Virus record (IMG/VR): IMGVR_UViG_3300037427_000190
Location: 1-36,815 of that record
Origin: a virus
Strand: one strand, 5' to 3'
Length of the DNA: 36,815 nt
Part shown: in pieces, positions 3,360-14,173 of the stretch
Layout of the letters: each line of letters starts with the position of its first letter
How positions within the stretch are numbered: position 1 is the stretch's first letter
Translations under genes and position numbers: made by a program
Notes under the pieces: model-generated
What the model saw: the letters and a program-made list of their open reading frames with translations, nothing else
The model's database searches: none
Told to the model about the DNA's origin: nothing

Positions 3360-4589
3360 TCACAGCGCGAACTTGACGTTGACGTTAGCCACTGGCTTCA
3401 CTATGGGCATTTCATAAGCAATGACATAGGTTGTGGCGTCATTTTGATGGTCAAAGCCTGTTGTTTTGTCTGGGATGCCATTTAGATAGGTCTGCTGTTC
3501 TAGGCATTCTGCGACTCGCTTACATTTAACGGGGTTAATTTTTACTCGCCCTTTTTCCAGCGCGGAATTCATAGACATTACCCTGTCTTTAACTAAAGGG
3601 TTTTGTTTCTTGGCCCTGACAGAAAAGCCTGCTTGTTGAAGCAGTGCTATGTCGCTAATACTGGCGTTGGAGCTATGCCTAGCACCTCCAGAGGCGTCAG
3701 GATATATGTAGATGTGGCTGTCTGGGTATGCAGAGTTAATGCACTCAATCATGTCGCGAGTGTCATACATATCAACAAATTCGTTTACTGCGTGAAGCTC
3801 ATCGCCTCTAATGACAAATACTGTCGCCGCTTGTTGCATGACGTTAAAGTCACAACCTATTAACACTGGCTCGCCTTTTTGATATTCCTCGTCACTGCCG
3901 CAAGTGTCTCTGTCATAGCTGGCATATACCGTCCCGCTTGTGAGGTTTACAAACTCACCGTCTAAATAGGCTTTTAAAAGGTTAGCGGAGTAAGTCTCTG
4001 ATAGCGTTTGTATGTAATTAGGCGGCAAATATTTAGCGTTTGATGCGGTTGGGGCTTTAATAAGCGCATAGCTTGGCGAGGGGTTTTTCTTCCAGCGCTC
4101 ATATACAAACCGGAATCCCTCTGGCGTTGTGCCTACTGCAACCGTATTAATCCCTGTTTCTTTTTTTTGGCGGTTACGGGCAATGATCTGCTCCCACGCT
4201 CTTTGCGCTTTTGCAAGAGGCAAGGTGTCAAGCTCATCTACGCATGAGTCGCTGACTTCATATCCAACAATACGGTCTGGGTTGTCTAAGGTGCGGAATA
4301 TAATGCGCTTGCCGTTAACGTAAATGGCGTGTTCACTGCGGTTTATGCGGAACGGTATACCAGAGCCGCCTAGTATTTCCTCAAAGCGAGGATAGCAAAT
4401 GTCCCTGACAAGCCCGTATGTCGGCATATAATAAGCAAGGTCACGCCCATCCCCAAACACTTTAGTAAGGGTTCTAAGGATTAAAGCATGAGTTTTGCCT
4501 GAGCCAAAGCCGCCCACAAAAGCAGGGAATGGTGCGGGGTGATGTATAAAATCAACCTGCGGCTTGCTCCCCGTTGTCTCCAATATCAT
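3360..4589 (-). CDS. terL: Terminase large subunit (DNA-packaging ATPase/nuclease)
   Basis: The 409-residue protein carries both terminase domains. The ATPase domain has Walker A GGFGSGKT at residues 26-33, Walker B around residues 114-121 ending in catalytic acid DELD, and a coupling-type GTTPEG at 153-158. The RNase H-like nuclease domain shows the expected acidic positions: D247 in GCDFN, D298 in YPDASGG and D384 in FDHQNDA. It pumps DNA into the procapsid through the portal and cuts concatemers. The start overlaps the small subunit gene by 38 bp. The protein is at the short end for TerL, but the motifs are complete. The packaging mode (headful or cos) is not resolved by sequence; circular permutation would favour headful. 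Confidence 0.96.
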   Translation of the reverse strand: MILETTGSKPQVDFIHHPAPFPAFVGGFGSGKTHALILRTLTKVFGDGRDLAYYMPTYGLVRDICYPRFEEILGGSGIPFRINRSEHAIYVNGKRIIFRTLDNPDRIVGYEVSDSCVDELDTLPLAKAQRAWEQIIARNRQKKETGINTVAVGTTPEGFRFVYERWKKNPSPSYALIKAPTASNAKYLPPNYIQTLSETYSANLLKAYLDGEFVNLTSGTVYASYDRDTCGSDEEYQKGEPVLIGCDFNVMQQAATVFVIRGDELHAVNEFVDMYDTRDMIECINSAYPDSHIYIYPDASGGARHSSNASISDIALLQQAGFSVRAKKQNPLVKDRVMSMNSALEKGRVKINPVKCKRVAECLEQQTYLNGIPDKTTGFDHQNDATTYVIAYEMPIVKPVANVNVKFAL

Positions 4590-12773: not shown

Positions 12774-13199
12774 TTAGCCCCTAGTAGGAAACGACACGCT
12801 TACTCCTGTAGTTTCAGCTAAATGTCGAGCAATAGTTTCTTGTATTTTATCAATATCTTGCTTTTTTAGCTTTGTGCTGGATGTTTGCTCTGTGATTGCT
12901 TCCATTATTGGGTTCCACAAAAACCTTTTAGCCATTTTTGCGTCTTTGTCCCACGGAATGTCAACGTGCGGCTTTAGCGTTTTTCTCATATCGTAGCCTG
13001 CATCATTGAGCGCTTGTGATATTTGACGAAGCCACAGCCACATTGCGTTGTTTTGTTTTCGGGTTCGCTGATCACCGACATGCCACTTAAAACTGACTTG
13101 CCCGTGTTCTGCAAATAACGACTCTACGTGAGCTATAAAAAACTTTAATTGTTTTTCGTCTGTTACGTTCCAATGATCTCCATCGTACTCAACCCTCAT
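12774..13199 (-). CDS. ninB: NinB recombination protein
   Basis: The 141-residue product contains the NinB hallmark RTRKQNNAMWLWLRQISQAL (residues about 45-64) and, in pieces, the following conserved NDAGYDMRKTL, VDIPW and F-L-W-x-P-I-M-E-A sequence, ending with the conserved GV-x-V-x-FP. NinB (Orf of lambda) binds ssDNA/SSB and helps load recombinases, replacing RecFOR. It overlaps the replication-domain gene by 11 bp. Its pairing with ERF, an SSB-like protein and NinG forms a complete lambda-style annealing and resolution set. Confidence 0.93.
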   Translation of the reverse strand: MRVEYDGDHWNVTDEKQLKFFIAHVESLFAEHGQVSFKWHVGDQRTRKQNNAMWLWLRQISQALNDAGYDMRKTLKPHVDIPWDKDAKMAKRFLWNPIMEAITEQTSSTKLKKQDIDKIQETIARHLAETTGVSVSFPTRG

Positions 13200-13545
13200 A
13201 TACCCTCCCGTATTTTTTCATAAAGTATTCCCGCATGACCGGCTTTTGGTCAGCAGGTAGCCAAGATATGTCAACAAGCTCATCGCTTACCGCAGTGTCT
13301 CTAGTCTTGCCTTGTTGTTTGCTTTTTGCCATAGGGGAGCCGCCCCTGTCCTGCGCCCTAGACAGCCACGCATTGACAAACCGCTTTACACCCTTGCTGG
13401 TTTTACGCTTCTTGGGGTTTGCATCTAGCCAACCAGCCATTGCGTTTAATTCTTGCGCTACATCTACCGCTGGATATAAACCTGTCCACTTGTCTATATC
13501 TTTTTGCTCTGGCCTATATTCACTGCCATCATTTAAAGTCATCAT
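13189..13545 (-). CDS. Replication-protein domain (phage O/DnaT-associated C-terminal type), 118 residues
   Basis: The start at 13545 (MMTLNDGSEYRPEQKDIDKW) has GGGAGG upstream. Residues 22-73 carry the pattern W..YPAVDV.QEL..M.GWLDANPKKRKTSKGVKRFVN.WLSRAQDRGG, which usually forms the C-terminal part of phage replication initiators or DnaC/HNH proteins. Here it is a stand-alone 118-residue protein without the N-terminal winged helix. It ends with a conserved short helix (QKPVMREYFMKKYG). It may recruit host replication proteins. No helicase, primase or polymerase was found in the genome, so host machinery must be borrowed. The structured gene-free stretch directly upstream is the most likely origin site. 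Confidence 0.7.
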   Translation of the reverse strand: MMTLNDGSEYRPEQKDIDKWTGLYPAVDVAQELNAMAGWLDANPKKRKTSKGVKRFVNAWLSRAQDRGGSPMAKSKQQGKTRDTAVSDELVDISWLPADQKPVMREYFMKKYGRVYEG

Positions 13546-13743
13546 AATAAATAGCCTCCCATACGACCTCACAGGTCGCCCCGTTAAGTAAACATTAATA
13601 ATGCCGAGCTGTCTATGCTGTATAGAATCTGGTCATCTTGTCCCCGTAACTGCTCTCGCTACGGAGGGGACTTGCACTCACAAGTATCGTCGTCTCCAAG
13701 GTTCTCCGGTTCCTTGGCCTCGCCCCCAGCATATATTGTCGGC
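13546..13743. other. Gene-free, hairpin-rich stretch (possible leader or origin)
   Basis: This stretch belongs to a 327-bp gene-free interval. It contains a 9-bp stem with a three-base bulge (13640-13648 with 13660-13671, GTCCCCGTA/TACggaGGGGAC) and CCAAGG-N10-CCTTGG at 13696-13717. Short AT-rich stretches (around 13590 and 13731) lie beside these. No protein frame of credible codon use and no tRNA fold was found. It could be a structured leader of the replication gene, an origin, or a second RNA. Confidence 0.5.
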
Positions 13744-13782
13744 TTGTCAATTAGGTAGGTATTGATATAATCATCAAGCCGA
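13739..13782. repeat. Inverted repeat embracing the rightward sRNA promoter
   Basis: TCGGCTTG (13739-13746) and CAAGCCGA (13775-13782) are perfect 8-bp arms 28 bp apart. The left arm overlaps the -35 and the right arm covers the expected start site of the promoter at 13744-13771, an operator-like layout. Confidence 0.6.
13744..13771 (+). promoter_or_regulatory. Rightward promoter with extended -10 (TTGTCA-N16-TGATATAAT)
   Basis: TTGTCA at 13744-13749, a 16-bp spacer and a consensus TATAAT at 13766-13771 preceded by TGA (extended -10). This is the best-matching sigma70-type promoter seen in the genome, and it points against all surrounding protein genes. Confidence 0.72.
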
Positions 13783-13874
13783 GTCCACATCGGTATATTG
13801 CCACATCCTCCCATGATGGCAATGCCTTTATAGGCACCGCCCCCGCTGATCCTCCTATTGGCGGGGGTTTTTTT
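13778..13874 (+). ncRNA. Candidate small RNA, about 97 nt, opposite to the early operon
   Basis: A transcript from the promoter at 13744-13771 would start near 13778 and end at the T-run of the terminator at 13840-13874. It would contain CCGA-N7-TCGG, a 6-bp stem ATTGCC/GGCAAT (13797-13802 with 13818-13823), TGCCT-TTAT-AGGCA (13823-13836) and the G+C-rich terminator stem. No ORF with a ribosome site lies inside. Length, promoter, stems and terminator fit a bacterial-type small RNA. It is not antisense to a predicted gene except at its extreme 3' end, which meets the HTH gene's stop. The function and the exact 5' end are unknown. Confidence 0.6.
13840..13874 (+). terminator. Intrinsic terminator, rightward
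   Basis: CCCCCGC (13840-13846) pairs with GCGGGGG (13861-13867) over a 14-base loop and is followed by seven T on the plus strand. In the leftward direction the stem is followed by no T-run, so it acts only rightward. Confidence 0.82.
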
Positions 13875-14091
13875 ACAATCGTTGATCTAGAGTAATAAAC
13901 TCGTCTACTGTCATTCCAAAAATTCCAGCGAATTGTTGGACAGTGTGTAGCTTTAGGTTTTCTTGCCGCCGCCACCTTTGTAGCTGTTGTCTGCAAATGC
14001 CAAGCTCACTGCAAATGTCGCGAGTTTTAACTTCTTTGGCTTCTTGAGCAATGCGGATGCATTTCCCAATGTTAGATAACTTTGTTGACAC
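13873..14091 (-). CDS. Small HTH transcriptional regulator (Cro/CI-like)
   Basis: The 72-residue product has an XRE-type helix-turn-helix: KTRDICSELGICRQQLQRWR (residues about 22-41), then HTVQQFAGIFGMTVDEFI. A GTG start at 14091 is chosen because AAGGGAG lies six bases upstream; the longer frame to 14136 has no site. The GTG lies inside an inverted repeat GACAC-TG-GTGTC (14087-14098), which could be its own operator. The size suggests a Cro-like or repressor protein. No partner repressor or integrase was seen, so its role in lysogeny or early gene timing is open. Confidence 0.8.
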   Translation of the reverse strand: MSTKLSNIGKCIRIAQEAKEVKTRDICSELGICRQQLQRWRRQENLKLHTVQQFAGIFGMTVDEFITLDQRL

Positions 14092-14112
14092 TGGTGTCTC
14101 CCTTGATAGTGT
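14085..14112 (+). promoter_or_regulatory. Possible rightward promoter (TTGACA-N16-TAGTGT)
   Basis: A perfect TTGACA lies opposite the first codons of the HTH gene, with TAGTGT (weak -10) 16 bp on. The spacing equals that of the other phage promoters. It would feed only the 60-bp unit ending at 14173. Confidence 0.35.
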
Positions 14113-14118
14113 AGGAAG

Positions 14119-14173
14119 GCTGGCAGACCAGCACACTCCTAAAGTTTTTGCCCCCGTAATTGGGGGCTTTTTT
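14119..14173 (+). ncRNA. Possible short rightward RNA, about 55-60 nt
   Basis: After the promoter-like sequence at 14085-14112 the plus strand has a 5-bp hairpin GCTGG-CAGA-CCAGC (14119-14132), a 17-base linker and the terminator at 14150-14173. The unit lies in the 83-bp gap between the SSB and HTH genes, over the leader of the HTH mRNA, and would be antisense to it. Low confidence because the -10 is poor. Confidence 0.35.
14150..14173 (+). terminator. Intrinsic terminator, rightward
   Basis: GCCCCC (14150-14155), loop GTAATT and GGGGGC (14162-14167), followed by TTTTTT on the plus strand. In the leftward direction the hairpin is followed by AAAAAC, so it should not stop the SSB-to-HTH transcript. 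Confidence 0.75.

Follow-up and report, generated by a model that had tools for sequence, protein, structure and literature searches.

Predicted small RNA with conserved anti-Shine-Dalgarno loops opposite the early operon of an uncultured phage and its relatives

Results

The DNA analyzed here (the window) is the whole 36,815-nucleotide stretch of the viral record IMGVR_UViG_3300037427_000190. Its minus strand carries a small HTH (Cro/C1-like) gene at 13873 to 14091 (Pfam HTH_26, 22.1 bits; cut-off, 22), for which a GTG start was assigned by homology with L002, and, just downstream on the same operon, a replication-type gene at 13189 to 13545, so called for its weak similarity to a phage "replisome organizer" and preceded by the ribosome binding site (RBS) GGGAGG at 13555 to 13560. 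L002, a metagenome viral contig whose HTH is 92% identical, is the closest relative and also contains the block. In Vibrio phages that have a relative of the downstream gene, other genes precede it. Between the two genes lie a predicted small RNA on the plus strand and, adjoining its promoter, an operon-strand structured RNA of 129 nt.

The small RNA is preceded by a promoter with the sequence TTGTCA-16-TATAAT on the plus strand (13744 to 13771), with the −35 hexamer at 13744 to 13749, the −10 hexamer at 13766 to 13771, a 16-nt spacer, and an extended −10 (TG at 13763 to 13764, one base ahead of TATAAT), just as an earlier note on this DNA had read it. Both hexamers are unchanged in L002, where the spacer is 17 nt rather than 16 nt. 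The same note had called this the strongest promoter-like sequence in the genome, which is fair in view of the extended −10, yet the margin is narrow: the window has two promoter-like sites with 11 of 12 matches, of which only this one has the extended −10. The second (CTGACA-16-TATAAT, plus strand, 4405 to 4432) lies opposite the terminase gene, with no strong terminator listed close by.

The promoter is flanked by 8-bp inverted arms, TCGGCTTG at 13739 to 13746 and CAAGCCGA at 13775 to 13782 (no strand applies), which had been taken as a sign of regulation. The arms are present, but their regulatory meaning found no support beyond the closest relative: although L002 retains 7 of the 8 pairs, no comparable arms were seen in more distant relatives, and chance alone would give about 20 arm pairs (roughly estimated as 36.8 kb × 40 spacings/4^8). 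The arms are not significant, and their interpretation as an operator, unsupported past L002, was dropped.

The predicted small RNA of about 97 nt (13777 to 13874, plus strand), with its start placed 6 to 7 nt past the −10, folds into three small hairpins and then a terminator, with an energy of −41.8 kcal/mol compared with −26.3 ± 3.1 kcal/mol in shuffles (z = −4.9). The hairpin at 13797 to 13823 has the loop CCUCCC (13807 to 13812). The intrinsic terminator (13839 to 13874) is a 12-pair hairpin at 13839 to 13868 with CCUCCUA (13851 to 13857) in its loop, followed by seven T at 13868 to 13874, about 70 nt downstream of the promoter; the T-run overlaps the stop codon of the HTH gene. The stem with seven T and the stable transcript without an ORF, both claimed from the letters alone, were thus recovered. 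A competing 51-amino-acid minus-strand ORF (13659 to 13814) was rejected, as it has no PHROG match and its start and frame are lost in L002. CCUCC/CUCCU is the anti-Shine-Dalgarno sequence of 16S rRNA, and both loops are therefore anti-Shine-Dalgarno sequences, a point absent from the earlier note. The L002 RNA folds comparably (z = −4.6): the pair closing its first C-rich loop is changed on both sides with the loop intact (CAU-CCUCCC-AUG to CAA-CCUCCC-UUG), and the terminator stem is rebuilt around the unchanged loop CCUCCUAUU.

A promoter with at least 11 of 12 matches and a strong terminator no more than 160 nt downstream of it occur together once in the window, and 2 of 60 dinucleotide-shuffled whole windows contain such a pair. 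Taken alone, this coupling makes a chance origin moderately unlikely. We gathered relatives through a search with the nearby exonuclease (80 contigs); counting the window, 39 sequences proved to have an HTH gene belonging to this family. A corresponding unit, with an opposite-strand intrinsic terminator at most 25 nt from the HTH stop, was present in 29 of the 39; in the remaining 10, the HTH gene and the next gene follow each other without a gap. Other terminators of such strength on the same strand numbered only 20 in 402 kb. That promoter and terminator are a functionless coincidence, as the shuffled windows would allow, is very improbable given that the arrangement recurs at the same place in 29 sequences.

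Near-duplicates occur among these relatives, and the 16 transcripts below 80% identity to which the 23 distinct transcripts reduce are therefore the better measure of independent evidence. CUCC lies ahead of the terminator in all 16, compared with 6.3 expected from dinucleotide shuffles. Furthermore, a promoter, an exposed C-rich loop, and a terminator were found jointly at 15 of the 29 HTH-end sites but at none of 59 other terminators. An exact TATAAT stands at the right distance in many relatives; the promoters of L010, L048, L054, L062, and L069 are weaker or uncertain. Each small RNA was folded separately because the aligner misplaced the hairpins of L054 and L062.

The proposal of a small RNA opposite the early operon is thus supported by the conserved terminator, the TATAAT upstream of it in many genomes, and the persistent C-rich loops. 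The earlier note had asked for conserved stems; what the relatives share is the locus, the strand, the terminator, and the loops, while the stem sequences differ. Judged from these sequences, it is highly likely that the small RNA exists in this phage, and many uncultured relatives very probably also make such an RNA opposite their early genes. We found no DNA match to the region, or to the regions of two relatives, in 50,697 phage records and no match of the HTH protein among cultured phages; the portal and tape-measure proteins were less than 40% identical to their best full-length matches from cultured phages, and scans of bacterial genomes with the HTH pattern and the structured-RNA pattern found nothing.

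The unit comes in two forms. In the window type (the window, L002, L010/L011, L048, L054, L062, and L069), a hairpin with a CCUCCC, CUCCCC, UCCCC, or ACCCC loop is followed by a second loop with CUCCUA and then by the terminator, the second loop lying within the terminator itself in the window and L002. CUCCUA is inside a loop in 7 of 7 window-type genomes, and again the stem sequences vary while the loops persist. In the short forms (e.g., L036, L015, and L056), the RNA is about 40 to 60 nt long and the −10 adjoins the RBS of the following gene, which we take to resemble a primase gene, judging from its N-terminal sequence.

These forms bear on which strand is functional. The small-RNA strand outfolds its complement in 7 of 8 window-type genomes, mostly with more G-U pairs, which in the window favors the plus strand as the functional one. 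Among the short forms, folding of the complementary strand is equally good or slightly better, and the complement of the loops reads UAGGAG or GGGAG in hairpin loops; both would suit an operon strand whose GGAG-loop hairpins are protein sites (CsrA/Rsm-like A(N)GGA) or RBS decoys, with the opposite promoter and terminator being incidental. We consider this unlikely, since many genomes have T-runs and −10 elements in this same position on the opposite strand and the energies and G-U pairs of the window type point the same way.

Several neighboring elements were also recorded. In L048 (4166 to 4260, minus strand), the small-RNA strand has AGGAG-8-ATG and a possible 14-codon ORF whose end falls in the CUCCUAG loop; its start codon is missing from L010 and L011. 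In L077, on the opposite strand and away from the HTH gene (about 7134), a terminator with TATAGT and CUCUCCCC ahead of it may be another such unit. In the window, a second small-RNA-like unit lies at the start of the HTH gene (14085 to 14173, plus strand), with TTGACA-16-TAGTGT and a TG, a hairpin, CACUCCUA, and a strong terminator; it was not found at the corresponding place in relatives.

The structured RNA of the operon strand (13605 to 13733, minus strand), which the earlier note had missed, has counterparts in L002 (373 to 501), L010 (1760 to 1889), L048 (4285 to 4414), L054 (4778 to 4907), L062 (2564 to 2693), and L069 (3413 to 3542). In the alignment, 96% of cells are paired and 13 of 29 pairs are changed on both sides, which none of 500 shuffles matched. 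G-U cells outnumber C-A cells (16 versus 4), and we therefore assign the RNA to the operon strand. Its features include a GAGA loop of the GNRA type and a long 3′ stretch that is unpaired and conserved. Of the sources searched, only window-type genomes contained it, and no Rfam family matched it. It always follows the HTH/small-RNA unit; the genes after it differ among genomes, which makes a riboswitch of a single gene unlikely. In L010, L048, L054, L062, and L069, a short hairpin and then AAAAGGG stand between the structured RNA and the next gene.

Discussion

The sequence comparisons support the locus, strand, terminator, and loops; the transcription, timing, target, effect, and any cleavage proposed below are inferred. 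Our best explanation, which we hold with slightly better than even confidence, is a phage regulatory small RNA that occludes the RBSs of early mRNAs through its anti-Shine-Dalgarno loops. Starting at the strong promoter of sigma-70 type, host RNA polymerase would transcribe it counter to the early operon as far as the intrinsic terminator where the HTH gene ends. The hairpins would expose the C-rich loops CCUCCC and CUCCUA, which would pair with the RBSs of early mRNAs and block their translation, probably that of early or replication genes. The most plausible target would be the RBS of the replication-type gene just downstream, and, since the RNA is a perfect complement of the stretch of operon mRNA that separates this gene from the HTH gene, additional cleavage may occur there, as with lambda OOP.

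The loop CCUCCC is predicted to pair over 8 to 9 bp with the GGGAGG of this gene (13189 to 13545). As a target, the downstream gene headed the ranking in L002 and L062, came close to its head in the window, and stood lower in others; of 7 genomes, 4 have native loops that fit this gene best, and in two it ranked 5th and 7th. The search for targets by pairing, which the earlier note had suggested, thus yielded one candidate, weakly, with mixed ranks in the relatives. The evidence for this gene is suggestive, and C-rich loops, being generic, name no target.

The RNA could instead act solely on the mRNA of the opposing operon, as an OOP-like cis-antisense RNA whose duplex, begun by kissing between its C-rich loops and the G-rich ones of the complement, is cut by RNase III, lowering the HTH gene and/or the downstream gene. 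Lambda oop, between cII and O, has the same layout, the position by itself makes the RNA fully complementary to the operon mRNA, and read-through to the second plus-strand terminator of the window, past the HTH start, would span the whole HTH gene. That terminator, however, was seen only in the window, and all relatives have the end of the RNA at the stop codon of the HTH gene, which in the window is the only part of the gene that the T-run overlaps, whereas OOP overlaps cII by 52 nt (PMC5869508). Moreover, a cis-antisense RNA always matches its partner and needs no fixed loop sequence, so that the kept CUCC loop would go unexplained. For this reason, we favor pairing with Shine-Dalgarno sequences and regard purely cis action as possible but doubtful.

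With a strong promoter facing the operon beside a replication-type gene, the unit might also work through transcription rather than through the RNA, with opposing transcription, or DNA opening close to the replication gene, as the means of regulating replication or early transcription. A similar role has been proposed for the lambda pO promoter; according to a review, OOP is not a replication primer, yet pO matters for replication (PMC12197685). Such a mechanism would leave the conserved loops and stems unexplained, and we judge it quite unlikely.

RBS occlusion by a small RNA remains our preferred reading. If it is true, uncultured phages use a ribosome-mimicking RNA for timing early or replication genes. 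Being compact and clearly delimited, the locus lends itself to tests with reporters, and a second structured RNA comes along with it. As a speculation that we think unlikely to hold, the HTH gene, the small RNA, and the 129-nt RNA could belong together as a single control module of the phage, novel in its entirety. Two RNAs read from opposite strands would then govern the changeover from early regulation to replication between them, with the small RNA silencing RBSs and the structured RNA acting on the operon transcript, e.g., by antitermination or processing.

At the gathering threshold, no Rfam family was found in the window or in nine relatives. Among the subthreshold matches to the window, anti-hemB, ar14, and CcsR1 carry anti-Shine-Dalgarno-type loops. 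The best of them by E value was anti-hemB (RF02837, Burkholderia RNA 7), which likewise has a UCCUCCC hairpin loop, a short hairpin, and a terminator; at 24.5 bits against a threshold of 49.5, the window RNA is not a member by the Rfam standard. The alpha-r14/cuckoo RNAs (NfeR1, RF02344) share with it several anti-Shine-Dalgarno-loop hairpins on freely varying stems, followed by a terminator (PMC10746234, PMC3927594), and the score again falls short of the gathering threshold (22.9 versus 58.8 bits). NfeR1 occludes RBSs through three redundant anti-Shine-Dalgarno loops (PMC10746234), and Rhizobiales families with such loops on variable stems block RBSs (PMC3927594). These RNAs, however, are encoded on bacterial chromosomes and carry the full CCUCCUCCC in each hairpin loop, whereas the RNA described here is phage encoded and its loops have only CCUCCC and CCUCCUA. 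Staphylococcal C-rich small RNAs and Xanthomonas sX13 also direct C-rich sequences at Shine-Dalgarno regions but are host chromosomal; staphylococcal RsaA uses a C-rich sequence against the Shine-Dalgarno region of mgrA (PMC3961350), and sX13 gave a weak Rfam match to L048 only (13.7 bits; threshold, 50).

Among phage RNAs, the P1/P7 c4 RNA blocks translation and has RBS-complementary sequences in loops (PMC12197685); compared by description alone, it differs in being specific for ant mRNA and in its genomic context. Lambda OOP is, like the RNA here, a short intrinsically terminated RNA (77 nt) opposite an early operon, between a small regulator gene and a replication gene, a likeness in which the replication role of our downstream gene rests on weak similarity. 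The RNA here has conserved anti-Shine-Dalgarno loops, and we found none described for OOP. In having exposed anti-Shine-Dalgarno loops conserved on variable stems and, by sequence, its own promoter and intrinsic terminator, it resembles trans-acting anti-Shine-Dalgarno small RNAs in general. The predicted RNA family is new and joins two known themes: anti-Shine-Dalgarno-loop RNAs serve bacteria as regulators, and lambda is known for opposite-strand RNAs next to replication genes. None of the sources searched describes the two together.
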